Shown here piece after piece: positions 5,868-21,676 of a stretch of DNA of 64,000 nt. The stretch covers positions 1-64,000 of the forward strand of contig JADBKR010000006.1 in the NCBI GenBank assembly GCA_014896295.1. The letters are read 5' to 3'. The notes beneath the pieces are model-generated. The model was given only the letters and a program-made list of their open reading frames with translations, ran no database searches and was not told the origin of the DNA. Numbering within the stretch: position 1 is the stretch's first letter; every line of letters starts with the position of its first letter. This DNA comes from Limnochordaceae bacterium. GTDB lineage: Bacteria > Bacillota > Limnochordia > Limnochordales > Geochordaceae. A program made the position numbers and the translations under genes.

Positions 5868-6263
5868 TCACTCATCATTGTTTTCGGTGCTTCGCCCGCC
5901 CATAGCCGTGCGGGTGGGCATCCGGCCCGCTTCGGGATGGGTGAGGAGAAACTCCACCAACGCCTTCACGAAACGTTGCCAGTCGTCCGGTAGGCCGCCT
6001 ACCAGGTGTGCCACGTCACCGGGGGTCTGCCTCGCGTCGCCTGGCTCATCGATGGCGGCGACGAGGGAGGCCGCGGGTACGTGGAGGGCAGCGGCCAAGC
6101 GGACGAGGGCTTCCAGGCTCGGGGAGATCCGGGCTGCTTCCACCTTCTGGATGTAAGTGGGGTGGAAGTGAGCCAGTTCCGCCAGTTGCTCCTGGGTGAG
6201 CCGGCGCTCTAGGCGAAGGCGGCGCAGATGCTCGGCCAGCCGACGTCGCGGGCTGCTGTCCAA
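5868..6263 (-). CDS. XRE-family helix-turn-helix regulator
   Basis: A 131-residue DNA-binding protein. Residues about 8-65 form a Cro/C1-type HTH: LAEHLRRLRLERRLTQEQLA, then FHPTYIQKVEAARISPSLEAL and VRLAAALHVP. The remaining 60 residues are a short tail of unknown role. The TTG at 6263 is taken as the start because AGGAGG sits 8 bases upstream; the longer open frame to 6563 has no ribosome binding site and runs through the regulatory region. Such proteins often repress mobile-element genes and themselves. A palindrome and repeats immediately upstream (6301-6377) are candidate operators. Its C terminus is adjacent to the decayed gene at 4996-5781. Confidence 0.85.
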   Translation of the reverse strand: MDSSPRRRLAEHLRRLRLERRLTQEQLAELAHFHPTYIQKVEAARISPSLEALVRLAAALHVPAASLVAAIDEPGDARQTPGDVAHLVGGLPDDWQRFVKALVEFLLTHPEAGRMPTRTAMGGRSTENNDE

Positions 6264-6300
6264 CCGGCGCACCTCCTGCGCCCTCGATTGTGCCCCGATT

Positions 6301-6377
6301 GCCGATCTAGCAGGAACATCCCCACAGTCCGTCGAATCACGATTCGCAGTCTGGAGCGGCCAGCGGGCCGATCTAGC
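6301..6377. promoter_or_regulatory. Candidate operator region upstream of the XRE regulator
   Basis: An 11-base direct repeat GCCGATCTAGC occurs at 6301-6311 and 6367-6377. Between them lies the palindrome CGAATC-AC-GATTCG at 6333-6346. This arrangement in the leader of an XRE gene suggests autoregulation. Binding is inferred, not shown. Confidence 0.45.
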
Positions 6378-6398
6378 GAACCGGGGGTTGGGATGGTT

Positions 6399-6430
6399 CC
6401 GGGCCTCCATCGCTACGGATGGAGGCCCGG
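6399..6430. repeat. Perfect 13-bp stem hairpin
   Basis: CCGGGCCTCCATC (6399-6411), a 6-base loop, and GATGGAGGCCCGG (6418-6430) form a perfect inverted repeat between the divergent XRE and lipoprotein genes. There is no T-run on either side, so it is not a classical intrinsic terminator. It could be a protein-binding site, a structured leader or an element-specific repeat. Confidence 0.55.
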
Positions 6431-6535
6431 CCGCATTGCAATGGCGCTGACAGAGGGATGGGCGCAGCCCTACGGTGCCGTGCGGGCGGTGCCTCGTGTG
6501 AGCGTCAGGGGGCTCGATGACGGGGAGGGAACGAG

Positions 6536-6994
6536 ATGAAGCGCCAGCGGGTCCTACTTCCACTCCTTGTCCTTGGCCTTGCAGTCACAGTGTCTGGTTG
6601 CTTCGGGGCCGGCGCCCCCACGAGTCCTGTTCAGTCCCCAAAGCCCGAAGTGGCCATCTCCGACGCCAGCGTGAAAAAGCACAGAAGCACCATCATTACA
6701 GGCGAAACCTACCTTGCCTATTACTGGTCGGTGATCCTGTATAACAAGGGCAACGCTGATGGCCGCGTAAAGGTCTCTGTGTGCGCCCCGCCCGCCGGCT
6801 GTCAAACGAACCTCGGGGAGTCTGATTGGGTCATCGTCAGCCCAAGCAGCTTTAGATCTGTCTCGGGCAGTACGTCGGAGTCGGCGAGCCTGCCTGACCT
6901 CAACCAGGCCGTGGTAAACGTCTGGCAGGATTTGGGCGCTCAGGGCTCAGTACTGGTGGATAGCTGGCAGGTCAACATTGAGCCCGGGTACTGA
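6536..6994 (+). CDS. Small lipoprotein, hypothetical
   Basis: A 152-residue exported protein. A basic start (MKRQR), a hydrophobic core and the lipobox VSGC place the lipidated cysteine at about residue 22, so the mature protein should be anchored to the outer face of the membrane. The mature part begins with a Pro/Ser-rich linker and continues with a beta-rich domain (TYLAYYWSVILYNKGNADGR, then VKVSVC) resembling the Ig-like folds of extracellular lipoproteins. Two cysteines in VCAPPAGC could form a disulfide. GGGGAGGG lies 6 bases before the ATG. It stands alone, divergent from the XRE gene. The family is not recognised; in a mobile element it could serve surface exclusion or host interaction, which is only a guess. 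Confidence 0.72.
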   Translation: MKRQRVLLPLLVLGLAVTVSGCFGAGAPTSPVQSPKPEVAISDASVKKHRSTIITGETYLAYYWSVILYNKGNADGRVKVSVCAPPAGCQTNLGESDWVIVSPSSFRSVSGSTSESASLPDLNQAVVNVWQDLGAQGSVLVDSWQVNIEPGY

Positions 6995-7132
6995 TGCCAC
7001 GCGAAGGCAGCGCGCCTGGCCGTGGCCTCCATCCGCTGCCTCTCCGAGGGCCGGTGGCAGGTTACCCAGCTCGAAAGGTACGCTTTCCTTTTGGGTGGAG
7101 CGGCGCCACGCGCTCGATGGCCTTGGCCAGCC

Positions 7133-7726
7133 TCACAGCCAGCCAAGAGCCCTCGCCTGTCGCAGGACTCGCTCCACCACCACGGACGGCGGCACCCCCT
7201 CCGCCTGCGCCTTCGCCTGCACGGCAGCACCCAACGCCTCGTCGATGTACCAGGCGAACGTCCGGCGGTGTCCCCTGCGGCGCTCCGGTAGGCTCACGGC
7301 AGGCGGCAGGAGCAGCGCGCGCCGCAGGGCGTTCACCTGCTCAGGCGGGGCCGTCGCCAGCTCGTCGAGCAGCGCGGCCAGGACGGGTCTGGTGACTGAC
7401 TCCTGACCCGTTGGTGATGACTCGCCAGGAAGCGCGTCGGGCTTCACTGAGCCGTTGCTGACGGGTTCGGTGATGACTCCCTCACCAGGCGCACCCCCGT
7501 CCTGGCCTTGTGGTTGCGAAGGCGTCACCGACTCGTCACTAACCGACTCCGGCCTGTCAGGGAGGGTCGTCACTGGAGGGGTCGGTAACTCGTCACGGAC
7601 CGCCTCTACGTCGGGAGTGGTCACTGACGCCGTTACGGAGTGGTCACGAACGACGGCAGGCGAAGACTGCTCACCGGTCACCGACGACTCACGAAGCGGT
7701 CGTTGCTTTCGGGTCCCTCGCGGCAT
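7133..7726 (-). CDS. Protein with Ser-Val-Thr repeat linker and RHH-like C-terminal domain
   Basis: About 197 residues in two parts. Residues 1 to about 125 are low-complexity, with recurring SVT and VTx motifs (SSVTGEQ, HSVTASVTT, ESVSDESVTPS, ESVTRP) rich in Ser, Thr, Pro, Glu and Asp. The C-terminal part (RRTFAWYIDEALGAAVQAKA, then SVVVERVLRQAR) resembles a ribbon-helix-helix or similar small DNA-binding fold. The ATG at 7726 is 9 bases after GGAGG; an ATG at 7732 is too close. The repeats are visible in the DNA as recurrent GTGACTGA-like words. Possible roles are partition, relaxosome accessory or regulator. No specific family can be named. Confidence 0.6.
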   Translation of the reverse strand: MPRGTRKQRPLRESSVTGEQSSPAVVRDHSVTASVTTPDVEAVRDELPTPPVTTLPDRPESVSDESVTPSQPQGQDGGAPGEGVITEPVSNGSVKPDALPGESSPTGQESVTRPVLAALLDELATAPPEQVNALRRALLLPPAVSLPERRRGHRRTFAWYIDEALGAAVQAKAQAEGVPPSVVVERVLRQARALGWL

Positions 7727-7854
7727 CTCCATACACCTCCCAACCCCTTCGTAACTCCTCTCGTGAGCAGACCACAAGACGGAACACCCGCGCGCCGTCC
7801 GTCTGTTCGGTGAGGGGAGCCGAAGCAGTCAGGAGGCAGTCAGGAGTCGAGCCG

Positions 7855-8295
7855 TCAGGAAGTGGTTACTGGCTCCTCGCGAAAGTCCACGCCGAAGGTT
7901 GGGAGACGCCGGAGCCAGGCGATCTCCTCCGGGTCGTCGGTCTCGTAGACGCCGCCGCTGAACTTCACCGTCCCCCGCGGGCCGCCGAAGAGCATCAGCC
8001 CGCCGTGGCGGCTCGTGAACCGCACACGCTCCACCCTCGGCGCAGGCTTCGGCTCCGGCTCCGGCTGGCGCACCGGCTCCTGCTTCGACTCCGGGCTCGC
8101 TATGTGCGCGACCCTGTACGCCTCGATGGCGGCGCGCGACCAGATTGGGCCGCTCGCCAGCCACGCCCACGGAGCAGGCAGCGTCCCTCTGGCGGCGTAG
8201 GTGCTCACCTTGTTCGGGCTCCACCCCAGCAGCGCAGCTACCTCGGCGGCCCCCAGCAGAGGGGCACGCAGGTTGAGGGGACGGGCTTTCCGCAT
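7855..8295 (-). CDS. AlpA/MerR-type HTH protein with conserved element C-terminal domain
   Basis: A 146-residue protein. Residues about 15-58 (LLGAAEVAALLGWSPNKVST, then GTLPAPWAWLASGPIWSRAA) are a helix-turn-helix of the helix_turn_helix_17/AlpA type, which reads DNA as an excisionase or regulator. A Pro/Glu linker leads to a C-terminal module (RVRFTSRHGGLMLF, GGVYETDDPEEIAWLRR, FGVDF) seen in my memory of phage-associated proteins. The ATG at 8295 has GGGGTGA 5 bases upstream; the GTG at 8304 has none. A decayed copy of the C-terminal module lies at 4265-4445. A palindrome about 45 bp upstream may be its operator. Confidence 0.72.
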   Translation of the reverse strand: MRKARPLNLRAPLLGAAEVAALLGWSPNKVSTYAARGTLPAPWAWLASGPIWSRAAIEAYRVAHIASPESKQEPVRQPEPEPKPAPRVERVRFTSRHGGLMLFGGPRGTVKFSGGVYETDDPEEIAWLRRLPTFGVDFREEPVTTS

Positions 8296-8341
8296 TGCAC
8301 TCACCCCATGACGAAGTAGTCACGAAGCCCTTACCTACCAG

Positions 8342-8358
8342 TGTTGTAACGTACAACA
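8342..8358. promoter_or_regulatory. Palindrome TGTTGTA-ACG-TACAACA
   Basis: A perfect 7-bp inverted repeat with a 3-base spacer, 47 bp upstream of the AlpA-type HTH gene. Its spacing and symmetry fit a dimeric repressor site. Which protein binds it is unknown. Confidence 0.5.
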
Positions 8359-8359
8359 G

Positions 8360-8752
8360 CGTAGTGAGCAAGCAGTCGGCGAGTCGTTACGGACGACAGT
8401 GACGCCACAAGTGCGAAGGGGCGCAAATGGCGGCGTGACGGGCAGGAGCGGGGTTCGGGCCACACGCGACCCCACACCTCAAAAAGGGCGGCGAAACACT
8501 GAGACAGCGCAAAAAACGGCAACGAGGCGGTCTTGTGGGCAGGCGGCGTTCCATATCGCTCAACACCCCAACGCGCGCGCGAGACGACCGTGGCGCAGGC
8601 GTTCGGCGCGACTCGGCACCTAAAAACACGCGGGGTCACACGCCCCAAAAAGGCGTCGATGCGCGGACCGCGACGGCATGCGGCAACGGGACCGCCGGCA
8701 AGCTGGCCGCGTCACAACATGTCACAGCCTAATGCGCGCGTGCGGGGCCGCC
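8360..8752. other. 393-bp gap, no supported gene
   Basis: Open frames here are short, on both strands, and have no ribosome binding site. Two related words, CACCTCAAAAAGGGCG near 8465 and CGCCCCAAAAAGGCG near 8640, recur. With the adjacent palindrome this could be a control or replication region of the element, but no iteron array is evident. Confidence 0.35.
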
Positions 8753-8977
8753 TCAGCGACGGCCCACCCAGACGGCCCCTTCGGCCTGCCGGGTAAGACG
8801 CTCGACGACCAGCTCGGCCGGCGTCCCCCGTCGCAGTGCCTCTTCCACCTGGCGGGCCACAGTCAGCACGGCCAGCCGACCCAGCGCCGACGCGCTCAAG
8901 CCCGCCTCGAGGGCGATGCGGCGTATGCGGCGCCGCTCATCGCGGTCCAGGTAGATGGTTAATGCCGGCGGCTTCAT
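8753..8977 (-). CDS. Ribbon-helix-helix protein
   Basis: A 74-residue protein with the RHH pattern: a short beta strand (ALTIYLDRDE) followed by two helices (RRRIRRIALEAGLSASALGR). The C-terminal helix carries many Glu and Arg residues. Such proteins bind DNA as dimers and often act as plasmid- or ICE-encoded regulators or relaxosome accessories. AAGGGGGGAGG lies 5 bases before the ATG at 8977, so the longer frame to 9064 is discounted. It is transcribed in the same direction as the primase gene cluster and could be its last gene, about 105 bp after the zinc-binding gene. Confidence 0.7.
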   Translation of the reverse strand: MKPPALTIYLDRDERRRIRRIALEAGLSASALGRLAVLTVARQVEEALRRGTPAELVVERLTRQAEGAVWVGRR

Positions 8978-9082
8978 CTGGCCTCCCCCCTTCCTGTCCA
9001 GATGCCAGCGTGCGAGGATGCGGCCATGATGGGATGCTGGCACTCTATGGCGCGTCGTGGTCACATGCCCACGACAGCCGCC

Positions 9083-9316
9083 TCACGCCCCGTCCTCACC
9101 GGCCCGCTCTGGCCTGCAGCGAAGGTGGTGCAGGGAATCAGGCCGCCATGCCCGACCCCACGCCACCGTCTCCCCCGGCAAAATCGCCCGCCCGCAGTAG
9201 CAACAGACCACCTCACGCTCCCATGCCCATGCGAAGTCTCGGATGAACCTCGCCCCGGCCACGAAAGGCGGGCGGAGTAGCGGCGTACTGGCCTTGCGTG
9301 CAGTCGGAAACCTCAT
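9083..9316 (-). CDS. Small putative zinc-binding protein
   Basis: A 77-residue protein whose second half carries CCYCGRAILPGETVAW followed by LHHLRC: a CxxC knuckle and an HxxC pair about 25 residues apart, the spacing of a small zinc ribbon or treble clef. Its ATG at 9316 overlaps the stop of the upstream 31-residue frame in an ATGA junction, so it is likely translated by coupling. It is the last coupled gene of the cluster beginning with the primase. Function is unknown; such proteins in phages and ICEs often bind nucleic acid. Confidence 0.6.
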   Translation of the reverse strand: MRFPTARKASTPLLRPPFVAGARFIRDFAWAWEREVVCCYCGRAILPGETVAWGRAWRPDSLHHLRCRPERAGEDGA

Positions 9317-9408
9317 CGCACCACCCTCATTCCGGCGACCGCAGCCTCATCCGGAACGGCGGCGATGGGCAGTCGGAACTTCGAGTCCAGCACCGCAGCG
9401 ACCATCAT
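9313..9408 (-). CDS. 31-residue coupled small ORF
   Basis: A very short frame (MMVAAVLDSKFRLPIAAVPD, then 11 more residues) linking two genes. Its start ATGATG at 9408-9403 overlaps the stop of the 169-residue gene upstream, and its stop overlaps the ATG of the zinc-protein gene downstream. Double four-base-type overlaps and coherent codon use suggest it is translated. Its role may be no more than carrying ribosomes across the junction. Confidence 0.45.
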   Translation of the reverse strand: MMVAAVLDSKFRLPIAAVPDEAAVAGMRVVR

Positions 9409-9914
9409 CGGGCCGTCACCTCCTCGGCAGCCGCCATAACCTGCACCGGCTTGAGGCGAACAAACGTTTGGGCTACCGTCTCGGCCAGGCTGGCGGCGTC
9501 GGCGAAGCCGTCCAGCCGCGCCAGGCACAGCGCCGGACTCGTCTCCACGCCCGACGCTCCAGCACGACCGGCCAGGCGGCGGAACGCAGCCTGCGCCTCC
9601 TCACTCAGCCTCCGGCGTGCATGGGCGGCGTCGAGGCTGACGACCCACCCGCCGTCCATGCGCTCAATAGCCACCAACGGTCGGCGGGCGGCCAGGCACC
9701 ACCAGGCGTACAGCCCGGCGGCCAGAGCCGTCTGGCCAGCGAAGATGCACCATCCACGTCGCTTGAAGCGGCGGTACGCGGACAGCTTCTCGTCGCCAAG
9801 CGGCCCAGGCAGGAGCACCCCGGCGACGGCGACAACCATCTTTCCGTAGGCGGCGGCGTCCACGGCCTCGGGCCTCAGCAAGTCAGCAGAGGGAAGGCTC
9901 AGCACGCCGGGCAC
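9405..9914 (-). CDS. Hypothetical element protein, 169 residues
   Basis: Starts at GTG 9914, with AGGAGG 9 bases upstream, overlapping the end of the previous gene by 16 bases. A central hydrophobic stretch (GQTALAAGLYAWWCLAARRP, about residues 60-78) could be a membrane helix or buried core. The C-terminal half is helical (EEAQAAFRRLAGRAG). No known motif is recognised. It lies in a tightly coupled string after the primase and the TubC-like gene, so a role in replication or maintenance of the element is likely but unproven. Confidence 0.55.
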   Translation of the reverse strand: MPGVLSLPSADLLRPEAVDAAAYGKMVVAVAGVLLPGPLGDEKLSAYRRFKRRGWCIFAGQTALAAGLYAWWCLAARRPLVAIERMDGGWVVSLDAAHARRRLSEEAQAAFRRLAGRAGASGVETSPALCLARLDGFADAASLAETVAQTFVRLKPVQVMAAAEEVTAR

Positions 9915-10411
9915 GGGGCGTCGCCTCCTTCTCCCTTGGGAGCGTCTGGCAGAAGCCTCGCGCCTAAATAGCGCTTCACGGACACCAGCAGCTCGACTTC
10001 TTCCGGGCTCTCGCAGTCCAGAAGCGCCCGTGCCTCGTATGGCAAGAAGACCGGCACGCCGGGGCGCTTCTCTTCGGCCCAGCGGGCCGCGTCCAGCGAG
10101 GGGGCGAGCACCACGGGGCCGAAGGCGGTCTCCAACAGCACCGGGCGGCCGCTTCGCAGGCGCTTCGCTACTTGGCGAACCAGGGACTCAGGCACGGGGC
10201 GGCGGGGCGCAGAGGGCTCCGAGGGCTTTGCGTCAGCCTGCGCGAGCAGGTGCGCCTTCACCTCCCGCGCCCGAGCCTTCAGCTCGTCCAGCAGCGCGTC
10301 TACGTCGGGCGGAGCGTCATCGGGTACGTCAGCCCGCAGTTGGCCTTCGGGGTCAAGGTAGACGCGTACCCGAGCAGCGTTGGCGTGTGCAAGAAGCTCG
10401 CCGACCGTCAT
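9899..10411 (-). CDS. Protein with TubC-like N-terminal docking domain
   Basis: A 170-residue protein. Residues 1-55 (MTVGELLAHANAARVRVYLD, then LRADVPDDAPPDVDALLDEL, then EVKAHLL) match the TubC_N docking fold, which also occurs next to primases of phages and ICEs. A charged linker leads to a second domain (SLVRQVAKRLRSGRPVLLET, then VPVFLPYEARALL). The ATG overlaps the primase stop in ATGA, so the pair is translationally coupled. A likely role is to bind or assist the primase. That is inferred from position and the known docking role of such domains, not from catalytic motifs. Confidence 0.6.
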   Translation of the reverse strand: MTVGELLAHANAARVRVYLDPEGQLRADVPDDAPPDVDALLDELKARAREVKAHLLAQADAKPSEPSAPRRPVPESLVRQVAKRLRSGRPVLLETAFGPVVLAPSLDAARWAEEKRPGVPVFLPYEARALLDCESPEEVELLVSVKRYLGARLLPDAPKGEGGDAPCPAC

Positions 10412-12735
10412 TCGAGCACCACCCCCACGCCACGCCGCCTGGAGGCACCTGCGGTGGTCGTGTGTGTACCATCCACCCCGACGCCCGAATCACCCGAATT
10501 AGGTGCCGAGCCGTCATGACGGCGTTCGATTCGGGCGATGGCGGTTTCGCCCGAAGACGCCCGAACGCCCGAACCCGATACTCCGTTCCCGGACTTCGGG
10601 TCATTCGGGCTAGTTCGGGCGTAGGCCGGATCGCCCGAAGCGGAAGGCCGAAATGACGGCTTCGGCAGGGCTTCGGGCGATTCGGGCGCGGCGGGGGTCG
10701 CAACACACACGCGCGCCATCTCATCGTGAGACGGGAGGATAGGCTCATCGACAGGCAGGGGCTCCCGGCTGCGGCGGTAGCGGTGGGGACGGCCTGGGCC
10801 GGGCCGCTCTTCAAGGTCGATCAGGTAGCCCTCGGCGGCAGCCTCCGCCAATAGTCGGCGCAGCCACCGCTCGTCCCGCTTCAGCTCGCGCGCCAGGGTT
10901 TGCACGGTGACGCCGCCCCCGTCGGCAGGCTCCAGCCGTTCCACCTGCTCGATGACTTCGCGCATCGCAGGCGGCACGGCGGTCTTCGCGCCTCGCTGGA
11001 TTAGCGGCCCAACCAGCCGCACCACCGCCGCATAGTCATCTAACGTCGCAACGACGCGCCCCTGGGCGTCTGGCTCTCGGTTCGCCCGATGGAGTAGGGC
11101 GTGAGCTTGTACCAATGACCACAACGCCGGCATGTCCCGCCGGAGGCGCACCGCCACCGCCTTCGTGCGCTTCGCAACATCGGGGGCAAACGGTATGATG
11201 ACCTGCGCCGGGTTCGACGCGAGCCACTGCTGGAGTGCGTGCCAAGGCGTCAAGTCGGGCGGCTCCTGCGGGCTGGCGACCGACTCGGCCTGCGCCTCGA
11301 TGATGCGCCGGGTCTGTTCTGGCGAAGCGTCGGTAGTCAGCCGCAGCAGCCGAGTCTCAAGCTCAAAGTCCAGCGTGAGCTTCGTCGTGGTCGTGATAAA
11401 CTGCGTCGGGCCGGCCTTCTCGATGGTCACGGCCTGAAGCCCGTCCGGCCCCTTCAGCACAGTCGGGTATCGAAGGCGGTTCTCGCTCAGAAGGCTCCGC
11501 AGGCCGTAGGTGAACAGGTCATCCGCCAGCCCGGCCGCCTCCTGCACGAAGAACGTCTTGTGCTGGAGGTCATCCCCCATGTAGAACAGGGCGTGACTGC
11601 TCATGGCAGTGGCGTCGACGGCCTGCCCGTCAGGCAACAACTTGAGCGCCGTCTTTACAAGGTGCGTCTTGCCTGCCGACGACGGCCCCTCCACCACGAC
11701 ATGCACGGGCCGCTCCAGCAGCCGGCTCGTGACGGCGAGATACAGCAGCTTGGCGTTGTCAGCCTCGCCCACAAGCCCCAGGCGCGGCAGGATGCGCTCC
11801 AGTTCCGCCAGGATGTCAGGTGAGCGGGCAAGCGGCCCCGCCTTCTCCAGCGCCTCCGCAGCGGCCTTGCGCGCGGCCTCCGCCTCGAGTTCGCCCACCG
11901 GCACGGCGGCAGCCATGGCCGCCTCGATCTGCGCCCGGAAGGCTTCCTTGCGCCCTTCGTCGTCCAGGCCGTCGGGAAGGCCGAGCCACACCTCCGACGG
12001 GTCCTTCGCTCCGTCCGGCAGGCGCACGACCCGCAGCCGATCTCGAAGACCCGGCGTCTTCGCCAGGCGCTCCACCATGCCTGCTCCGGCCTTGTCCGGC
12101 TCCTGCACGACGTACACCGTGGCAATGCCGTCGAGGAACGATGCCCATTCCGGCCTCCACGTGGTGGCACCCGGCAGGCCGAGGGCCGGAAAGCCGGCGA
12201 ACCACAACGCATGACAGTCGCTTTCGCCCTCTACCAGGATGACGTGCCCGGCCTTCCGGGCTTCAGCGAGGCGGTTCAATCCGTATGGCAGAACCTTCGC
12301 GCCGCGCCGCCAGGTGAACCGCCGGTCGCCCGTCATGGCGTGACGGTAGCGGGCTGCCACTTCCTCGCCGCGCTCGTCGAGGTAGGGGATCGCCACCGCA
12401 TCATGACGGTCGTCGCCTTGACCGATGCGTACATCCCGAATGCCGAGCCCTCGCAGGAACTCGACGGGCAAGCGCTTCGCCCGTGCGTACTCGTCCAACG
12501 TCAAGCCCGCCATGACACCGAGCCGACGGGCCAGGTCCGTCAGGGTGCCGGCGGCTCCGCACCCCTGGCACCGATACCGACCGCTGGCTGCGTGAATGCC
12601 GAAGCTGGGTGTCGTGTCGGCGTGTGTCCCGAGCGGGCACCGGCAGGTGATCCAACCGCGCCGGTCGGGGCCTGTGTGATCGCCAATTTTGGCGAGGATG
12701 GCGCGCAAAAGTGTGATATCATATACGCGAGCCAC
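10408..12735 (-). CDS. CHC2-type primase / P-loop ATPase of the mobile element
   Basis: A 775-residue replication protein. Order of domains: a CHC2 zinc finger (ITCRCPLGTHADTTPSFGI, then YRCQGCGAAG, residues about 27-65); a TOPRIM domain (HVILVEGESDCHALWFAGFP, then VYVVQEPDKAG, about 160-240); and a helicase-like P-loop ATPase with Walker A EGPSSAGKTHLVK (about 355) and FFVQEAAGL as a plausible Walker B region. A winged-helix-like and low-complexity Ser/Gly-rich tail follows. It should prime, and perhaps unwind, element DNA. The GTG at 12735 is chosen because GGAGGT lies 7 bases upstream; the ATG at 12750 overlaps that site. The gene heads the coupled cluster down to 9083. Confidence 0.88.
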   Translation of the reverse strand: MARVYDITLLRAILAKIGDHTGPDRRGWITCRCPLGTHADTTPSFGIHAASGRYRCQGCGAAGTLTDLARRLGVMAGLTLDEYARAKRLPVEFLRGLGIRDVRIGQGDDRHDAVAIPYLDERGEEVAARYRHAMTGDRRFTWRRGAKVLPYGLNRLAEARKAGHVILVEGESDCHALWFAGFPALGLPGATTWRPEWASFLDGIATVYVVQEPDKAGAGMVERLAKTPGLRDRLRVVRLPDGAKDPSEVWLGLPDGLDDEGRKEAFRAQIEAAMAAAVPVGELEAEAARKAAAEALEKAGPLARSPDILAELERILPRLGLVGEADNAKLLYLAVTSRLLERPVHVVVEGPSSAGKTHLVKTALKLLPDGQAVDATAMSSHALFYMGDDLQHKTFFVQEAAGLADDLFTYGLRSLLSENRLRYPTVLKGPDGLQAVTIEKAGPTQFITTTTKLTLDFELETRLLRLTTDASPEQTRRIIEAQAESVASPQEPPDLTPWHALQQWLASNPAQVIIPFAPDVAKRTKAVAVRLRRDMPALWSLVQAHALLHRANREPDAQGRVVATLDDYAAVVRLVGPLIQRGAKTAVPPAMREVIEQVERLEPADGGGVTVQTLARELKRDERWLRRLLAEAAAEGYLIDLEERPGPGRPHRYRRSREPLPVDEPILPSHDEMARVCVATPAAPESPEALPKPSFRPSASGDPAYARTSPNDPKSGNGVSGSGVRASSGETAIARIERRHDGSAPNSGDSGVGVDGTHTTTAGASRRRGVGVVLE

Positions 12736-12808
12736 GTTGCCTACCTCCATTTACCGCCGCCCTCGCCGTCCGGGGCGGCGTTTTCGTTGTTGGCTGCGCG
12801 GGCCGCCC

Positions 12809-13042
12809 TCAGCGAGCGGCCCGGTCGTCGTCCTGCTGCATCCGCTGCACGGCCGCCGGGTCCGCGAGCAGCCGCTCCAGCGCCAGCCGTGGAATGACGA
12901 ACTTCCGCCCAACTCGAAGCGCCGGAATAGCCCCGGCATGCAGTAGGCGGTACACAGAGTTTTTGGACAGACCGAGAATCTGCATGACCTCCGGCACCAT
13001 CACATACTCACGGTCGATTTCCCCCAGGCGCACGCTTCGCAT
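12809..13042 (-). CDS. Excisionase-like helix-turn-helix protein
   Basis: A 77-residue DNA-binding protein with the HTH_17/excisionase pattern YVMVPEVMQILGLSKNSVYR, then AGAIPALRVGRKFVIPR. This family includes Xis-type directionality factors and AlpA-like regulators. AGGAGG sits 9 bases before the ATG at 13042. It is divergent from the unknown gene at 13148, with a shared 105-bp control region, and lies upstream of the primase in the same direction. Being about 1.7 kb from the attachment site, it could steer excision of the element or regulate the primase operon. The HTH is clear; the exact role is not. Confidence 0.78.
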   Translation of the reverse strand: MRSVRLGEIDREYVMVPEVMQILGLSKNSVYRLLHAGAIPALRVGRKFVIPRLALERLLADPAAVQRMQQDDDRAAR

Positions 13043-13065
13043 GGAGTCGCACCTCCTGGCACGCA

Positions 13066-13135
13066 ATCTTGCCAAGTCTACTCATGGAGCTTTAAACTGA
13101 ACGCGGCAAGATGCGATCAAGTGCTTCGTTTAAAC
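13066..13135. promoter_or_regulatory. Divergent promoter/operator region with inverted repeats
   Basis: ATCTTGCC (13066-13073) and GGCAAGAT (13105-13112) form an 8-bp inverted repeat 31 bases apart. TTTAAAC occurs at 13091-13097 and again within the palindrome GTTTAAAC (13128-13135). This AT-rich patch is the only gap between the divergent excisionase-like and unknown genes and is therefore the likely shared control region. Confidence 0.5.
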
Positions 13136-13147
13136 GGAGGCAGCCCT

Positions 13148-14608
13148 GTGGAGTTGGAGGAACTGCCCCTCGACGATCACGAGCCCGAGCGGGCGACGTG
13201 GGGCTACACGTTGTACGAGGTGCGGAGCCAGAAGCGCGGGGAACACCGCCGCTACGTAGAGCGTCTCAGGCTGACGTGGCGCGAGCCCCTGGACCCCGAT
13301 GGGGAGCGGTGGGCCATTGTGGCCCGGTCGCTTCCCCCATCGGATGCGCCGCCTGGGTACTTGGCGTGGGCGGTGCTTGCCTCTGGCCCGTCGCTGGTGG
13401 CAACGGGGCGCCGAGCCTGGGCTCACTACCTGGACCGACACCCCGAAGCGGCCAAGGGGCGGATGTTTTCTCAGAAGCCAGAGCGGCCAACCCCGCAGGC
13501 TCTCGCCCTGGCGGGACTCATCGTCCGCCACTTGCAGGCCGTGCGGGAGGCGATGGTGCGGGAGAGGGGCCTGTCATTGCCCGATGACTGGGCGGATGCC
13601 AACGTGCCAGGTTCCGTCTTTTGGGTCGGGGAGACGCTGGACAGTATCCGGCGCGCTGTCGAGGCGGCCACGGGCCAGCCGCTTCGGTTGCGCCACCGTT
13701 GGCACCTGGCGGGCCGTCAGGCGCAGAAAGCGTTGCGGGTGAAGCCTGGGCGATTACCGAGCGAAGAAAGACACCCGGAACGGGCCCAGGGGCTCTTGCC
13801 TTTCGAGGCGTTGTTGGTTCGCAAGGGCAAAGTCGCCGAGAAGTGGGAGGGCCTACCGGATGACTGGAAGCCCGGCGACCCCGTTCCCGAGGAGTGGCTT
13901 CCAACGACCACCGCCAGGATGCGCCAGGCCGTGCGGCAGTTGGGCGAGTGGCGGCCCGACGAGTTGGGGCTTCCCATCCGGCTCTCTCCCGCCAGGCTCG
14001 ACCGCGCAGTGCGTCGGCATGAGGAGGAGTGCGGGGCGCTCACCATCGAGGCCGGCGAGGCGCGGTTCGACAGGCTCGTGTCGCTGGTGTGGCTTAGCGC
14101 GGTCCACGGGGTCGAGGCCCGGAACCTGTTCACCTGCGTGCGGTGCGGGGGCCTGGGGATCCGCGAGGAGGGCGGGATGCGCCGGCGGCTCCTGTGCGAT
14201 CACTGCCTCGCGGAAAGACGTGGGGAGTCCAAGAGAAGCCGCCGTCTCGCCGTCGAGGATGACGCCCTGCAACGGGCTATCCAGCGGGCGAGGGTCTGGA
14301 TCGCCAACACGCTGGGGCGAGCCGAGGAGCGCTATCTGCAAGAGAATCCGGCGGCCGCCATCTGGCTCGACTTGCCGCAGCAGATGGACCAAGCCGCTCT
14401 CGACGAGGCCATCGCCAGGGGGTTCATACCAGAGCATGCGGTTCACGCTATCCGGGCCGTCATGGAGGTTCGGCGACGAATCAAGGAAGCGAGGGCGTTG
14501 ATCCACCAGGCGATTCGCGAGGGCTGGGACGCCGATACGTTCGAGAAGGCGTTCGACAAGCGGTTCGGGCGACAACGAGGAAGGGGCCGACCACGCTCCA
14601 TCCCTTGA
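13148..14608 (+). CDS. Unknown attachment-site-proximal protein with zinc-finger-like motif
   Basis: A 486-residue protein with no family I can name. Visible parts: an N-terminal alpha/beta region (about 1-130); a helical middle with repeated Trp/Pro motifs (LPDDWADANVPGSVFWVGET, EGLPDDWKPGD); a Cys cluster CVRCGGLG followed by LLCDHC (about residues 334-362) that fits a four-Cys zinc finger; and a basic C terminus, RQRGRGRPRS, resembling an AT-hook. GTG at 13148 has ACGGAGG 7 bases upstream. The R-H-R-Y set of tyrosine recombinases is not evident. Its place next to the tRNA attachment site and opposite the excisionase-like gene suggests a DNA-binding role in the element. Confidence 0.6.
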   Translation: MELEELPLDDHEPERATWGYTLYEVRSQKRGEHRRYVERLRLTWREPLDPDGERWAIVARSLPPSDAPPGYLAWAVLASGPSLVATGRRAWAHYLDRHPEAAKGRMFSQKPERPTPQALALAGLIVRHLQAVREAMVRERGLSLPDDWADANVPGSVFWVGETLDSIRRAVEAATGQPLRLRHRWHLAGRQAQKALRVKPGRLPSEERHPERAQGLLPFEALLVRKGKVAEKWEGLPDDWKPGDPVPEEWLPTTTARMRQAVRQLGEWRPDELGLPIRLSPARLDRAVRRHEEECGALTIEAGEARFDRLVSLVWLSAVHGVEARNLFTCVRCGGLGIREEGGMRRRLLCDHCLAERRGESKRSRRLAVEDDALQRAIQRARVWIANTLGRAEERYLQENPAAAIWLDLPQQMDQAALDEAIARGFIPEHAVHAIRAVMEVRRRIKEARALIHQAIREGWDADTFEKAFDKRFGRQRGRGRPRSIP

Positions 14609-14770
14609 CGCGGCGGCCATGGGCGGGCTACTGCACTACTGGAATTTTACTGCAACGCCGCAGAGATTCGGTGGGATTCGAGGGGAGAACATGGGATCGG
14701 GTAGGGCCGCAAAGCCCATCACGTCGCACTGCTTCCCGTAGCGTCCCTGGGAGTTTCTGGGTGGATCCGT

Positions 14771-14826
14771 CTCAAAATCGAGTGGGGTGACCCCCCATGC
14801 GGGTTCGACTCCCGCCGCCGGCACCA
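14771..14826 (+). other. Attachment site: 3' half of tRNA-Leu(CAA)
   Basis: The sequence reads as the second half of a leucine tRNA: anticodon loop CTCAAAA (14771-14777, anticodon CAA), 3' anticodon strand TCGAG, a long variable arm GGGG-TGA-CCCC, T-arm GCGGG-TTCGACT-CCCGC (14799-14815), acceptor strand CGCCGGC, discriminator A and encoded CCA (14824-14826). The bases before 14771 cannot pair as the missing anticodon, D-arm or acceptor strands, so no intact tRNA exists here. Tyrosine integrases typically cross over in the anticodon loop, leaving exactly such a half. The mobile element lies to the left and the chromosome to the right. Confidence 0.8.
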
Positions 14827-14993
14827 ATCCCGAGGAGCAGCCAACGTCGCCCTCCCGGGGGTGTACGGTGTACTCTTCGGGCGGCCTGCGCACCCTTCAT
14901 TTACCCCGGTCGAGGCCGCGCACTCCGGCGGCACCTGCGAAGGTCCAACGAGCGGCTTCGTGGCAACGTCGGTGGAGCAGACGGCCCGCCGGT

Positions 14994-15512
14994 TCATGAC
15001 CGCTTGCTACCTGCAGGGCCGCCGTCCGTACTGTCCCCGGGCACCCTGGCCAGCGTGGCCACGGCGCCGAAGAGGGCGAGGCCGGACAGGGCAAGGGGCG
15101 CAAGAGGCGGGGGCATCTCCCTGCGGCGGAAGGACGGAGCCGGGAGCCCTTGCGCGCGAGCGACCGGAATGGACCTGCGCTGGAAGCCTTCGGGCTGCTC
15201 GAAACGCCCCTCCGAGGGGAAACCCGGCGGGAAGCCGCGGCGCTGGGCGTGTTCGGCGACCCCGATCGGGCCTGATATGGCGAGGAGTGCGAGAAGCACG
15301 GCCGCCCAGACCGCCGCACGCCCGTGCAGGAGGAAGGCGGCTCCGGCCAACAACAAGCCGATCAGGGCCGCGACCACTGCCATGATCTGGGGGCCGTCCG
15401 TGTGCCGGGTCACGAGCAGTTCGGCGAGCACCGTGAGGAACCCCAGGCCGACCAGAACCAAACTCCACTCGGGCAAATGAAGGCGTGCTCCGGCCTGGAT
15501 GCGTTGAAGCAA
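14994..15512 (-). CDS. Four-helix membrane protein, hypothetical
   Basis: A 172-residue protein with hydrophobic segments at about residues 16-34, 42-62, 66-88 and 135-155, separated by a basic, Arg/Pro-rich loop (about 90-130). It lies just outside the attachment site, so it is the first chromosomal gene. The TTG start at 15512 follows a weak GGACGGTGA. No catalytic or transport motif is visible and the family is not recognised. It may be the partner of the truncated permease fragment immediately upstream. Confidence 0.55.
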   Translation of the reverse strand: MLQRIQAGARLHLPEWSLVLVGLGFLTVLAELLVTRHTDGPQIMAVVAALIGLLLAGAAFLLHGRAAVWAAVLLALLAISGPIGVAEHAQRRGFPPGFPSEGRFEQPEGFQRRSIPVARAQGLPAPSFRRREMPPPLAPLALSGLALFGAVATLARVPGDSTDGGPAGSKRS

Positions 15513-15608
15513 GTTGGTTCACCGTCCTCGAAGGCCGCAGTGGACTTGGGTACTCCGAGCGCGACTGTAGCATGCCGGGCACCCGACCCTGTGAACGCAT
15601 TGTGAAGA

Positions 15609-15735
15609 TTACTGGGAGGGATTCTGAATATCCCGCCAGGTATCAACCGGGTGCATGCGCGCGGCATCCCAGGCCGGGTAGAGCCCGGCCACGACCCCGA
15701 GGAGGACGGCCAGTCCGACGCGGTCTGGGATGCGG
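15609..15735 (-). pseudogene. C-terminal fragment of a MacB/FtsX-type permease
   Basis: The minus-strand frame reads RIPDRVGLAVLLGVVAGLYP, then AWDAARMHPVDTWRDIQNPS and a stop. This is the characteristic last helix and tail of FtsX/MacB ABC permeases. The rest of the gene is missing: upstream lies the end of the sugar permease gene. A deletion or rearrangement joined the two operons and left only about 40 codons of the permease. Confidence 0.6.
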
Positions 15736-15788
15736 CAACGGCCTGGTCGGGGTCGGGAACTTGCACAGGCGAGCCCTTTGGCCGGACC

Positions 15789-16628
15789 TCACTTGATGCT
15801 CCCCGCGGTCAACCCCTGGACCAGGTACTTCTGGATCAACAAGCCGAACACGACGAGGGGAAGGGCGGTCACGACGCCTGCCGCGCTCATGGTTCCCCAG
15901 TCGACGGCCTTCTCTGTCACGTACATGCTGACGAGGACCGGCAGGGTGCGCGCCTCGGCCCCACCCAGTACCAGCGGGAACAGAAACTCGTTCCACACCA
16001 GGATGGCACATAGCACGGCAGTCGCCGCCAGCCCGGGGGCCGTCAGCGGAACCACCACGCGAAGGGCAGCCCTCGACCGCGTGGCGCCATCGACCATGGC
16101 GGCCTCTTCCAACTCCACGGGAATCTCCGCGAAGAAACCCCGCATCATCCACACGGCAAAGGGCAGCGCCAGGAAGGCACCCGCCAGCACCAGTACCGTG
16201 CGCGTCCCTGCGAGGCCGATCCAGCGAGCACCGACGAAGAAGGGGAGAATCATGACGACCGGCGGCGTCATGCGTGCCAGCAGGATCAAGAAGCTCACCG
16301 TCTCTCCCGACCGCAGGCGAAACCGGGAGAGGGCATACGCCATCGGCACTCCCAGGAGTAAGGCCACGGTGACCCCACCGCTTGTGACCACGACGGTGTT
16401 GGCGATGACCCGAAGGACCTCATGGCTGGACAGGAAGTGCCGGTAGTTGTCCAGGCTCGGCTGCCGGGGCCACCATGCCGGCGGTACGGCAAACTGTTCG
16501 GCTTGCGGCTTCAGCGACGAGACGACCACCCAGACCACGGGATAGAGGCTCCACGCGACCACCCCGAGGAGCCACGCTGCGGCGGCCAGGTCCCCGGCCC
16601 GCCGGGCCCACGAGCGACTGCTCATCAT
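15789..16628 (-). CDS. CUT1-family ABC permease (MalG/UgpE-like)
   Basis: A 279-residue inner-membrane permease with six predicted helices. The cytoplasmic EAA loop, which docks the ATPase, is LEEAAMVDGATRSRAALRVV. The N-terminal SLKPQAEQF after helix 1 and the C-terminal KYLVQGLTAGSIK are standard for the MalG branch. The start ATG at 16628 overlaps the stop of the partner permease (ATGA), so the two are translated together. With the MalF-like permease and binding protein it imports a sugar or nucleoside-like substrate. No ATPase is encoded in the operon; a shared MsmX/MsmK-type ATPase elsewhere is the usual solution. Confidence 0.9.
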   Translation of the reverse strand: MMSSRSWARRAGDLAAAAWLLGVVAWSLYPVVWVVVSSLKPQAEQFAVPPAWWPRQPSLDNYRHFLSSHEVLRVIANTVVVTSGGVTVALLLGVPMAYALSRFRLRSGETVSFLILLARMTPPVVMILPFFVGARWIGLAGTRTVLVLAGAFLALPFAVWMMRGFFAEIPVELEEAAMVDGATRSRAALRVVVPLTAPGLAATAVLCAILVWNEFLFPLVLGGAEARTLPVLVSMYVTEKAVDWGTMSAAGVVTALPLVVFGLLIQKYLVQGLTAGSIK

Positions 16629-17590
16629 TCCCACCCAATCCCCTTACGGTATGCGAGCGTCATCAATAGCGCCACGATCAGCGAAAGAACGCCGAGCGCT
16701 CCTGCGTATCCGAGCTGGTAGCTCTGGAAGGCCATGCGATAGGTATAGAAGCTCAACACTTCGCTGGACGACCCTGGCCCGCCGCCGGTCACGACATAGA
16801 CCGCGTCGAACAAACGCAGGGCGCTCAGGGTGCGGATGACGACGGCCACGAGGAAGGCAGGCCTCAGCAGCGGAATCGTGATATGCCACAGGCGCTGCCA
16901 CGCTCCCGCGCCGTCTACCAGGCTCGCTTCGAACGGCTCTGCCGGCAACGCCTTCAACCCTGCCAGCACGACGAGAGTCACGAAGGGGAAGGCCTGCCAG
17001 GCGTCCAGGCCGATCAAGACAGGTAGCACGAGCGCCGGGTTGGCCAGCACGGGCGGATCGACCAGGGCCGTCCATCCAAGCCACCGGAAGAGCCAGGGCA
17101 ACGGCCCGAAGTCGTTGTTGAGCAAAAACCTCCAGGCGAACGCGGCCACCACGGGGGTCATCATGAAAGGTACGAGGATGATGGACGTGATGACCCGGCT
17201 TCCCGGTAGTCCCCGGTGGAGGGCGAAGGCGGTGATGGTCCCGAGGAAAAGCTCCAGGACGACGGCGCCCACGACGAAGAAGAGGGTACGCCCCAGTGTC
17301 TGCCACGTAAAAGGATCCGTCAGCATGCGTTGGAAGTTGGCCAGGCCAGCCCAGCGTATGCCCAGGTCGGGTCGCAGGAGGCTCCACCTCACCAGCGACA
17401 GGCCCACGCTGTAGGCCAGGGGGACGGCGAATATCAGGGCGAGGAAGCCGAGCCCTGGAGCGAGGTACGGTACTGCCTCCGGCACATACCGGCGTTTACG
17501 ACCGGGTGACCCAACCGTCCGTGTCCGGATGAAGAGGCCATGGGGCGGGAGGGCCCCGCCCCGCATGCTCTTGAGGGTCTGTCCGAGCAT
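16625..17590 (-). CDS. CUT1-family ABC permease (MalF/UgpA-like)
   Basis: A 321-residue permease with a cytoplasmic N terminus (about 45 residues) and six to seven membrane helices. The EAA loop reads FEASLVDGAGAWQRLWHITI. LFDAVYVVTGGGPGSSSEVL, late in the chain, is the hallmark of MalF-type proteins. The start ATG overlaps the stop of the binding-protein gene (TGATG). It pairs with the downstream MalG-like subunit to form the channel. The first 30 residues are unusually basic, so a later start is possible. Confidence 0.9.
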   Translation of the reverse strand: MLGQTLKSMRGGALPPHGLFIRTRTVGSPGRKRRYVPEAVPYLAPGLGFLALIFAVPLAYSVGLSLVRWSLLRPDLGIRWAGLANFQRMLTDPFTWQTLGRTLFFVVGAVVLELFLGTITAFALHRGLPGSRVITSIILVPFMMTPVVAAFAWRFLLNNDFGPLPWLFRWLGWTALVDPPVLANPALVLPVLIGLDAWQAFPFVTLVVLAGLKALPAEPFEASLVDGAGAWQRLWHITIPLLRPAFLVAVVIRTLSALRLFDAVYVVTGGGPGSSSEVLSFYTYRMAFQSYQLGYAGALGVLSLIVALLMTLAYRKGIGWE

Positions 17591-18903
17591 CAGTAATAAC
17601 CCGCGTCCTTCATCATGCGATCCACTTGGGCGGCTGCGTCCCTCAGGGCTTGGTCTGCGCCCTTTTCACCTGACAGGAAGCTGGAGACGGCCGGTGCGAT
17701 CGCCTCGTTGACGATCGGCGGCCCCTCCGGGATGAGCGGGACCATCGGGGTCGGTACACAGTGAGACAGCGCATCCTCGAAAGCCCCCAACCACGGCATC
17801 TTCCCCTGTAGCACGGGACTCCGCAGGGCCGACAGCCGTGCCGGGATGTTACCGACCGGAGCCGCCGCAATCATGGGAGCGGTGCCGGTGACGTGCTGCA
17901 CCCATTGGATGGCCTGCTCCTTGACCGGCGAGCGGGCGCTCACGACGAACCCCCACGAGATGTACAGCATGGGCAGCTTCTTGCCCGCCTGTCCGTCGGG
18001 CCTGGGGAAGCCCACGAACGAAGCCTTGCCGGCGATCTTGGAGGACTTCGGGTCGTTGGCATAAAAGAGCCCCGTCGTCCACAATTCGGCCATGGCACTT
18101 CGACCCGACGAGAACTCGGTGAGCGCTTCCTGGAAGTCGTAGGAGTAGGCTGCCGGGTTGGCGAACTGGAACATCTCCTTGACTTCGTTGAGCGCTCGCA
18201 GACCCTCAGGCCCATCGAAGGCGGGGTGCATCCGCTCGTCCAACAGTTTCCCGCCGTACGCCCATAGCCGGTTGAGGAAGTGCGTTGCCAGGAAGATGCT
18301 CCGCTTACCCATCAACGTTACCCCGTAGAGCTTGGGAGGACGGTGGAAGAACTCCGCGACATCCCGGTATTGAGCCAGCGTCCTTGGGGGCGCCAGTTCG
18401 TAGCCGTAGCGCTCCCTGAAGGCCGCCTTTTCCTTCGGATCGTTGAAGAGGTCCGTCCGGTAGACGATACCGCCCAGCTCGTTCATGTACGGGATGAAGT
18501 ACAGGTGCCCCTGCTGAATGGCGTTGACGATGCCGGGCATGTCCTGCCGCATGGCGTCGCCGAGCAACCCGTCGAGGGGCTCGAGGTAACCGGCCGTCGC
18601 AAACGACGGGTACCAGAGCATGCTCACGTACGCGACGTCGAATGCGGGCCTCCCGCTGGTGAAGTTGAGGGTCAGGTAATCGAGATAGTTGGCGTACGGC
18701 ACTTGTTCGAGGACGACGTCGATGCCTGTCTTCTCCTCGAACGGCTGGATCTGCGTCTTCCAGGCCTCGGTATGAATGCCGAACTCGCTGACCACCCGCA
18801 CTCTTACGGGCGCGGCCAGCGCCTGCGCACCCGCGAGGAGCGCCATCGACGCCACCGCCGCGGCCCATGCACCGAGACTCAGCCATGTCCGCTTGCCCTG
18901 CAT
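17590..18903 (-). CDS. Extracellular solute-binding protein, family 1
   Basis: A 437-residue binding protein of a CUT1 transporter. A Sec signal peptide (MQGKRTWLSLGAWAAAVASM, then hydrophobic to ALA) precedes the mature domain beginning APVRVRVVSEFGIHTEAWKT. Typical MalE-like features are YVSMLWYPSFATAGYLEPLD and QEALTEFSSGRSAMAELWTT. The ATG at 18903 has GGGGAG upstream and starts two bases before the stop of the phosphorylase gene is complete. It is the third gene of the GntR-led operon; the neighbouring nucleoside phosphorylase suggests a nucleoside or N-glycoside substrate. Confidence 0.88.
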   Translation of the reverse strand: MQGKRTWLSLGAWAAAVASMALLAGAQALAAPVRVRVVSEFGIHTEAWKTQIQPFEEKTGIDVVLEQVPYANYLDYLTLNFTSGRPAFDVAYVSMLWYPSFATAGYLEPLDGLLGDAMRQDMPGIVNAIQQGHLYFIPYMNELGGIVYRTDLFNDPKEKAAFRERYGYELAPPRTLAQYRDVAEFFHRPPKLYGVTLMGKRSIFLATHFLNRLWAYGGKLLDERMHPAFDGPEGLRALNEVKEMFQFANPAAYSYDFQEALTEFSSGRSAMAELWTTGLFYANDPKSSKIAGKASFVGFPRPDGQAGKKLPMLYISWGFVVSARSPVKEQAIQWVQHVTGTAPMIAAAPVGNIPARLSALRSPVLQGKMPWLGAFEDALSHCVPTPMVPLIPEGPPIVNEAIAPAVSSFLSGEKGADQALRDAAAQVDRMMKDAGYY

Positions 18904-18904
18904 T

Positions 18905-19744
18905 TCACGGCTCCCCTCTCTCGTTCTTCCCGTCCGGCGACTCCGATTGCAGCTGATGGGCGAGCAACCGGGCCGCTTCGAGCGCAATCTGGATGGATGC
19001 TCGTACCCCGCGCTGGATCACGTCGCGGGTTGGAGAGTCGACGCTGAGATCGACTCGCTCCGAACGGCTCTGGCGGTACCGGTTGGCGTAGACGGTACCG
19101 ATGAAGCCCGAGTGGACCCCGCGCAGCGAGGCCACCACCATCAGCGCGGCCGCTTCCATCTCCATGGACACGACGCGTTTTCGGACCCACTGGTCGAAGT
19201 ACTCGGGGGTTCGCGCATAAAACGCGGAGTGGGTCCAGTTGATCCCCGTGTGGAATCGGTAACCCATCTTGTTGGCCGCCTGTATGAGGGCCTGGTATAC
19301 CGGAGGGCTCGCGGCCGCGGGGTAGTTCTCAGGGACGTAATAGCGGCTGACCCCGTCGTCCCGTACGCAGGCGTACGGGATCACGAGATCGCCTTCCTCG
19401 AGCTCGGGCTGAAGGCCTGCAACGCTGCCCACTCGGATCAGCACGGTCACCCCGAGGTTGATGAGCTCTTCGTAGGCGATCGCCGCCGACGGCCCGCCCA
19501 TGCCGGTCGACGTGACACCCACGTCCACGTCCCGGTACCGTCCCCGGTAGGTGATGAGGCCGCGGTTGTCGGCGATGAGCCGGGCGTTCGCCAGTTCACT
19601 GACGATGAGCGGGACCCGCCCCTGGTCTCCCGGCACGATGACGGTGCTCGGGACGTCGCCGGGACCGCAGGCGATGTGGTACTGGCGCTTTCCTTCGAGC
19701 CCCGTCGGCTGGCGGTAGTCCGAACGTTCCAGGTGACCCTCCAA
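18905..19744 (-). CDS. Uridine/purine nucleoside phosphorylase family protein
   Basis: A 279-residue cytosolic enzyme of the PNP/UDP phosphorylase family, which splits nucleosides with phosphate into base and (deoxy)ribose-1-phosphate. Visible signatures: VIVPGDQGRVPLI (phosphate loop region), STGMGGPSAAIAYEELINLG (the family's GxGxP motif), RVGSVAGL, and VVSMEMEAAALMVVASLRG, with the Glu that contacts ribose. The MEMEAA motif and length are closer to uridine phosphorylase than to trimeric PNP. It lies between the GntR regulator and the binding protein in one operon, so the transporter probably brings in its substrate. Confidence 0.85.
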   Translation of the reverse strand: MEGHLERSDYRQPTGLEGKRQYHIACGPGDVPSTVIVPGDQGRVPLIVSELANARLIADNRGLITYRGRYRDVDVGVTSTGMGGPSAAIAYEELINLGVTVLIRVGSVAGLQPELEEGDLVIPYACVRDDGVSRYYVPENYPAAASPPVYQALIQAANKMGYRFHTGINWTHSAFYARTPEYFDQWVRKRVVSMEMEAAALMVVASLRGVHSGFIGTVYANRYRQSRSERVDLSVDSPTRDVIQRGVRASIQIALEAARLLAHQLQSESPDGKNERGEP

Positions 19745-19774
19745 TGCGTGACCCCTCTTCCTGTCCAGGATGCG

Positions 19775-20545
19775 TCACGTGCGGCGCTGGCGCACGATTT
19801 GGAGCTTGAAGCGGTGCCAGACGATGTAGTCCACGGAGTGGATGATGGGGACGTTGCGATCGTCGAAATGGGTCTCCGTGAGTTTGACGAGCGGGGTTGC
19901 CGGATCGACCTCCAGCAAGGCCGTCAGCTCGGCGTCGGGCAGTTCGGCCGCAATCTCGGCCACGGCGTACCGCACGCGGCGGCCGGCGACCTGGTCCAGC
20001 ACCTCGAAAAGGGGCCGCCCCTGCTGCCCGGCGTCGATCGCCTCGCGGCCCAGGACATCCAGGGGCACGCCGACACGCTGCGGCAGCCGGCTGACACCCA
20101 GGGCGATGGGATGCCCGTCGGCCCGGTACACCTGCCGGATGGCGACCACCGTGTCACCCGGGGAGACCTGGAGCGCCCCGGCCACGTCCGGAGTCGCAGG
20201 CTCCAGGCTCCACTGTTGATGGTCGATGCATGGCTCTTTGCCGCTCGCCCGGATGATCCGCGGGATTCCTCGGAGCTCTTCCAGCCCGGTCGTGACCGAG
20301 CGATCGGGACCGAGCACGAAGGTCCCTACACCCTGGCGCCTCAGGATCAGCCCTTCCCGCTCGAGCGCGTGCAGGGCCTCTCGAACGGTAGGCCGGCTGA
20401 CCCCTAACTGGGAGGCGAGCTTGGGCTCGCTGGGCAAGGGGGCGGAGCGGGGCCATGACTGGATGAGTTGCCGGAGATCCTGCTGGACCTCCGCGTAGAG
20501 GGGGAGGCGACGCCTCCGGTGTTGGATGCGGAGCTCTTCGGACAA
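19775..20545 (-). CDS. GntR-family regulator with UTRA ligand domain (HutC type)
   Basis: A 256-residue transcription factor. Residues about 15-75 are a GntR winged helix ([53 protein letters not shown]). Residues about 95-250 form a UTRA ligand-binding domain ending [20 protein letters not shown] and DYI. The TTG at 20545 is the start because GGAGG is 8 bases upstream; a nearby ATG is out of frame. It heads the operon with the phosphorylase and transporter and probably responds to a (phospho)nucleoside or sugar ligand. The candidate operator lies at 20569-20586. Confidence 0.9.
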
Positions 20546-20568
20546 GGGCCATGCCTCCGGGCCGGAGT

Positions 20569-20586
20569 TTGTCTGACATCTTACAA
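20569..20586. promoter_or_regulatory. Candidate GntR operator
   Basis: TTGTCTGACATCTTACAA, an imperfect palindrome with TTGT/ACAA ends, lies 24 bases upstream of the GntR-family start. HutC-type regulators often bind such spaced TTGT/ACAA half sites next to their own gene. Assignment is by position and symmetry only. Confidence 0.4.
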
Positions 20587-20733
20587 GTACACCTTTCTGA
20601 AAGCGGCGTCAAGGGGGCAATCGCCTGGGTCGTCCTCCCTCTCTGTCCGCCGGCAGGAGGAGAGGCCACGGGGGTGCGAGGCGACGCGTCGGCGTTGCGG
20701 CCCAGGGCTGGGCGAAGCCGGGGAGCACGAGGG

Positions 20734-20763
20734 TTGACAGCGCAGCCTCGGGAAGTGTATAAA
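20734..20763 (+). promoter_or_regulatory. Sigma-A-type promoter of the LIV/CoA-ligase operon
   Basis: TTGACA at 20734-20739 and TATAAA at 20758-20763, spaced by 18 bases, is the best promoter match seen in the window. Transcription would begin near 20770, about 90-120 bases before the first gene. The gap 20546-20860 otherwise holds only the GntR operator and this leader. Confidence 0.7.
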
Positions 20764-20860
20764 CGGTTTCAAAGTTGCGTACCGGATCGACGAGATTGTC
20801 GTTGCATTCACATTCGCCTGGCGCCGGCTGCTTCCGAGCCGGCGGGCGAGGCCGGGCGGT

Positions 20861-21676
20861 ATGGGACGCCGAGCGAGGGGCTCACACGAGGTGCAGGCGC
20901 CGTACGTTCTCGACTGCGTTGAGGTTCAACGATCCTTCGGCGGCATCAAAGCCCTTGATGGGGTCACGGTACGGGTGCGTGCGGGAAGCATACTGGGCGT
21001 GGTCGGGCCCAACGGTAGCGGAAAGACCACGCTCGTCAACGTCATTACGGGGTTCTACCCGCCGCAGGGTGGTCGCATACTCTTCGACGGGCAGGACGTC
21101 ACGGGCCTCCGGCCGCACCGCATCGCTTCCCTGGGTATCGCGCGCACCTTCCAGAACCTCGCACTCTTCCGAGGTATGAGCGTGCTCGACAACGTCCTGT
21201 TGGGTCGCCACGTACGGCTCCGTCCCGGGGTGTTGAGCACGGCGCTCTATTGGTGGTGGGGGCAGGAAGAGGAGGTACGGCATCGTCGAGAGGTGGAGGA
21301 GATCATCGACTACTTGCAGCTCGAGGGGGTTCGCCAGGAGCCGGTAGAGCTATTGCCCCTCGGCCTGCAAAAGCGGGTCGAGCTCGCCCGTGCGCTGGCG
21401 GCCAAGCCCAGGCTCTTGATCCTCGACGAGCCCATGGCCGGCATGAACCAAGAGGAGAAGGAGTACATGGCCCGCTTCATCCTCGACGCCCACGACGAGC
21501 TTGGCTGTACCGTCGTGCTGATCGAACACCACATGGACGTAGTCATGGCCCTCTGCGAGGAGCTCGTCGTGCTCGACCACGGATCCGTGATTGCCGCGGG
21601 CCCTCCGGAGCTGATGCGGGCGGATCCGAAGGTGATTGCCGCGTACGTCGGTAGCACGGCCGGGTCACCGAACTGA
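20861..21676 (+). CDS. livG: Branched-chain amino-acid-type ABC transporter ATPase (LivG)
   Basis: A 271-residue ATPase of the HAAT (LIV) importer family. It carries Walker A GPNGSGKTTLVNVITG, the Q-loop FQNLALF, a signature region LPLGLQKRVELARALAAKP (diverged from LSGGQ at its first residues), Walker B LLILDEP, and the H-loop VVLIEHHMDVV. The long insert between Q-loop and signature is typical of LivG. Two starts are possible: ATG 20861, or GTG 20891 closer to the usual N terminus. It is the first gene of an eight-kilobase operon with two permeases, a binding protein, LivF and two CoA ligases. Confidence 0.9.
   Translation: MGRRARGSHEVQAPYVLDCVEVQRSFGGIKALDGVTVRVRAGSILGVVGPNGSGKTTLVNVITGFYPPQGGRILFDGQDVTGLRPHRIASLGIARTFQNLALFRGMSVLDNVLLGRHVRLRPGVLSTALYWWWGQEEEVRHRREVEEIIDYLQLEGVRQEPVELLPLGLQKRVELARALAAKPRLLILDEPMAGMNQEEKEYMARFILDAHDELGCTVVLIEHHMDVVMALCEELVVLDHGSVIAAGPPELMRADPKVIAAYVGSTAGSPN

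Follow-up and report, generated by a model that had tools for sequence, protein, structure and literature searches.

About half of the islands in the Islander catalogue have an anticodon-centred site, and the islands of this class combine an intact tRNA gene, a displaced 3' fragment of it and an integrase inside (PMC4383910). In layout, the 7-base anticodon loop and the stem on either side of it correspond to the overlap and core of lambda attB (PMC8371274). A well-described integration cassette at a tRNA-Leu gene is that of the Cluster J mycobacteriophages, such as Omega and BAKA, in which the 3' end of int faces an attP some 100 bp away, the core is 44 bp long, pairs of roughly 10-bp direct repeats flank the core on both sides and, in Omega, inverted arm-like sites are present at the int start (PMC3706429).

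The element of the Limnochordaceae bacterium described here is an ordinary tDNA island, of a well documented kind and not novel. An intact tRNA-Leu(CAA) gene is located at one end and a 3' fragment of it in the same orientation at the other, an integrase is encoded inside near one end, and the empty site is present in a genome of the same species, G071. No essential difference from the anticodon-centred Islander islands was seen; here the two ends lie on separate contigs. The layout is also that of the Omega/BAKA cassette: int is directed toward the attachment site, the core (57 bp) lies in a tRNA-Leu gene, and direct repeats, differing in sequence from those of the phages, flank it on both sides. 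Unlike in the Cluster J phages, no structural gene (capsid, terminase, portal or tail) was found among the proteins scanned from the assembled 22 kb, and the mycobacteriophage integrases among the matches listed are only about 31% identical to this one.

The displaced tRNA half, the intact gene and the integrase

The window, i.e. the whole stretch of DNA analysed (64,000 nucleotides, from the first position of contig JADBKR010000006.1), contains at positions 14771-14826 a segment (CTCAAAATCGAG...GCCGGCACCA) of 56 bp that matches, at 100% identity, the 3' part of a tRNA-Leu(CAA) gene carried by a different contig of this genome, C2. If A14827 is counted, the identity is 57 bp and extends from the first base of the anticodon loop to just past the CCA. 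This attR core (14771..14827, plus strand) is an exact copy of C2:7418-7474 (minus strand); at the G071 empty site, the core follows directly on its own 5' half. The initial annotation placed the start of the match exactly at the anticodon loop, which is correct for the exact 56 bp; with one mismatch allowed, the match begins three bases earlier (59/60 over 14768-14827). No further shared stretch of 18 or more bases was found between the window and the 16-kb end of C2 outside the core, which excludes a chance match. ARAGORN predicted no complete tRNA anywhere in the window, so the fragment lacks its 5' half, as had been stated; without it, the fragment 14771-14827 has no tRNA function. An Rfam search of window positions 1-25000 gave no matches. 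An antisense open frame with ESNP-like residues (14636-14893, minus strand) runs over the tRNA fragment; frames over tRNA pieces are prone to gene annotation, and this one is presumably spurious.

The intact tRNA-Leu(CAA), which had been expected upstream with the same terminal 56 bases and an integrase beside it, was located by ARAGORN at C2:7419-7505 (minus strand), on a separate contig because the assembly is interrupted within the element. The tRNA 3' part is present in only two copies across the assembled genome. The adjacent gene (C2:6087-7271) encodes a full-length tyrosine integrase of 394 aa (PF00589, E=4.2e-25) with an N-terminal SAM-like domain and the catalytic motifs R, K, HxxR, H and Y. 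The two genes are convergent, with 147 bp between the integrase stop codon and the tRNA 3' end. A nucleotidyltransferase-like and HepT-like pair, a possible MNT-HEPN toxin-antitoxin, is encoded just upstream of the intact tRNA, outside the element (C2:7552-8444, minus strand); its HepT-like part is found in G071 too.

An empty site within the species

The comparison with a relative lacking the element, proposed with the initial annotation, was made possible by G071, a complete genome that came up via the integrase search. A composite made in silico from the left flank with the tRNA and the right flank aligned to G071 as a single piece, with 1365 of 1401 columns identical (97%); the only gap is of one base and does not lie at the junction, whose sequence is ...CCGGCACCAATCCCGAGG... 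The G071 flanks are thus directly joined through one intact tRNA-Leu(CAA), and no additional half tRNA-Leu was reported at them. The two genomes are collinear for 5.7 kb to the left of the junction and for about 6 kb to its right, where there is one small difference in length, and the part of the element in the window is absent from G071 except for an IS fragment and trivial matches. Removing one 57-bp copy and everything between the copies restores the empty site exactly. The locus records gain or loss of the element inside a single species, in a class that has been sampled sparsely. Flank searches of 60 relatives, a set without G071, returned only other tRNAs and distant similarities. In collections of genome contigs and viral contigs, exact-pattern scans for the tRNA 3' part gave no matches and integrase searches gave distant relatives only.

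Candidate integrase arm sites

Comparison of the attL and attR arms revealed a common 15-mer, AATTTTACTGCAACG, within a TACTGCA doublet. The doublet CTACTGCA...TACTGCAACG in the attR arm (14628..14657, plus strand) is a probable arm-type site of the integrase, and the other two copies in the genome are located beside and ahead of int. The pattern CTACTGCA-N(2-14)-TACTGCAACG occurs 3 times in the 2.89-Mb genome, each time where an arm site would be expected, and not at all in G071; its reversed control has no occurrences. Relative to the loop, the doublet lies at +115 to +136 in the attL arm and at -143 to -114 in the attR arm. Judged from the sequence, the TACTGCA doublets are probably the arm sites of the integrase, in an arrangement already known from the tRNA-Leu cassette of Omega.

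This feature is not confined to one element. Nineteen related integrases that adjoin tRNA genes (Leu, Ser, Val, Met, Phe, Trp, Arg, Lys, Cys) were inspected, and 15 of them have exact direct doublets of 8-16 bp with a period of 11 or 12 in the tRNA-int gap; the rate in control segments of the same loci was 2.9%, which is an upper bound because the controls may include arm pieces. The motif sequences vary between elements. A doublet of period 11-12 beside the tRNA may serve as a simple predictor of integrase arm sites for many related elements.

The third copy of the doublet is inverted and lies about 210 bp ahead of int, while the inverted arm-like sites of Omega are at the int start. It is conceivable, though doubtful, that the inverted doublet is a regulatory site by which this clade of integrases represses its own gene; for most other related integrases tested, no exact copies of the arm motif were seen ahead of int. 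The inverted doublet may be a device common to some tRNA-convergent integrases, and the tRNA-Ser(TGA) element of G071 (see below) has one too.

Gene content of the element and its chromosomal flank

At least 22.2 kb of the element, which may be a prophage, a satellite or a mobilizable element, is assembled. Both contigs end inside it, the middle being unassembled, and no overlaps able to close the gap were found between contig ends; contig C1 of this assembly (3.6 kb) was set aside as a candidate for the missing middle, as its frames resemble, by eye, ATP-synthase subunits and cytochrome c. The right-hand part (window 1..14770) was delimited by its lack of counterparts in G071 and by the joined flanks there. 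Beside the contig end, it encodes an IS1634-family transposase (86..1744, minus strand; NF033559, E=1.6e-109), followed by a DUF6338 protein (2020..2634, plus strand; PF19865, E=2.1e-28), an HTH repressor-like protein (5868..6563, minus strand; PF13560, phrog_5823) and a primase/helicase-like replication protein (10408..12750, minus strand; phrog_239, E=5.2e-18). An excisionase-type HTH protein (12809..13075, minus strand; TIGR01764 above the cut-off, PF12728) presumably drives excision. Adjoining attR is a gene for a 495-aa protein (13121..14608, plus strand), for which no match was found in Pfam, NCBIfam, PHROGs or PADLOC.

The left-hand part (C2:1-7418) encodes, between the integrase and the contig end, small proteins and a type I-like methyltransferase to which a specificity domain is fused. 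This methyltransferase (898 aa, C2:2137-4833, minus strand) resembles MAD2 of the methylation-associated defence system, with a score below the family cut-off. Relaxase or conjugation genes were not detected in Pfam and NCBIfam scans of the assembled element parts. To the right of attR, the chromosomal flank (14828..20966) encodes a sugar-type ABC transporter (PF00528) and a nucleoside phosphorylase-like protein (PF01048), and is collinear with G071 at 97.6-97.9%.

Integration model and alternatives

Segment 14771-14826 is almost certainly the attR scar of site-specific integration by the tyrosine integrase of the element, with the integrase-proximal tRNA completed by the copy that the element carries. 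The initial annotation had read the fragment as a footprint of tyrosine-recombinase integration, and this reading is borne out by the intact gene, the adjacent integrase, the empty site in G071, the lack there of the part of the element in the window and the doublets in both arms; the 15 of 19 related integrases with such doublets and the tRNA-Ser(TGA) element of like plan in G071 agree with it. In the proposed mechanism, the integrase would recombine an attP that carries 57 bp identical to the 3' part of tRNA-Leu(CAA) with the tRNA gene of the host; the working tRNA gene at attL (C2:7419-7505) would then be completed by the element's copy, and the original 3' part of the host displaced to the far end (14771-14827, attR). 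Strand exchange would most likely take place within the 7-base anticodon loop CTCAAAA (14771..14777, plus strand), a probable overlap region suggested by its position at the start of the identity block and by analogy with anticodon-centred sites. Because the attL, attR and G071 copies are identical, the sequence does not place the exchange point inside the block. As for the base-level boundary between accessory and chromosomal DNA that had been claimed, the scar does fix it, with the 56 bp on the chromosomal side and the exchange point located only to within the 57-bp identity.

The ends of C2 and of the window's contig would be parts of one element; their flanks are adjacent in G071, and the middle is unassembled. 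Accretion of elements at tRNA genes is common, and tRNA-Leu(CAA) might carry two or more elements in tandem, with the C2 integrase coming from one and the part in the window from another. Such an arrangement could be accommodated by the missing middle and by the GC contents of the two parts (0.607 vs 0.663), but it is improbable: the assembled genome contains just two copies of the tRNA 3' part, although the unassembled middle might conceal a third copy of the core, and the identical, specific doublet in both arms is as expected of one attP. Half tRNAs can arise by other routes, but the idea of a stray pseudogene produced by duplication or rearrangement, with no part played by site-specific recombination, is refuted for practical purposes by the exact restoration of the empty site, the integrase at the opposite end of the element and the doublet common to both arms. 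Integration of a single element by its own integrase thus remains the preferred reading.

Related elements and relics

G071 itself contains at tRNA-Ser(TGA) a complete small element of about 7.6 kb (G071:C1:2996446-3004194). Its integrase is related (34% identity) and convergent on the tRNA, and at its far end a half tRNA, running from the anticodon loop to CCA, is 87% identical over 60 bp. As in the tRNA-Leu element, there is a doublet next to the tRNA and an inverted one ahead of int; the tRNA and the repeat sequence are different.

In the genome studied here, a decayed integrase at C6:97833-98349, up to 67% identical to that on C2, adjoins tRNA-Leu(GAG), and the neighbouring C6:98356-98503 is 79% identical to window positions 5580-5727, which suggests the remains of a related element. 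A search of C6:90-146 kb revealed no half copy of tRNA-Leu(GAG). Another integrase, at C3:11742-13259 near the contig start, is convergent on tRNA-Cys(GCA) and has a doublet of period 12; this locus is probably one more island interrupted by an assembly break.
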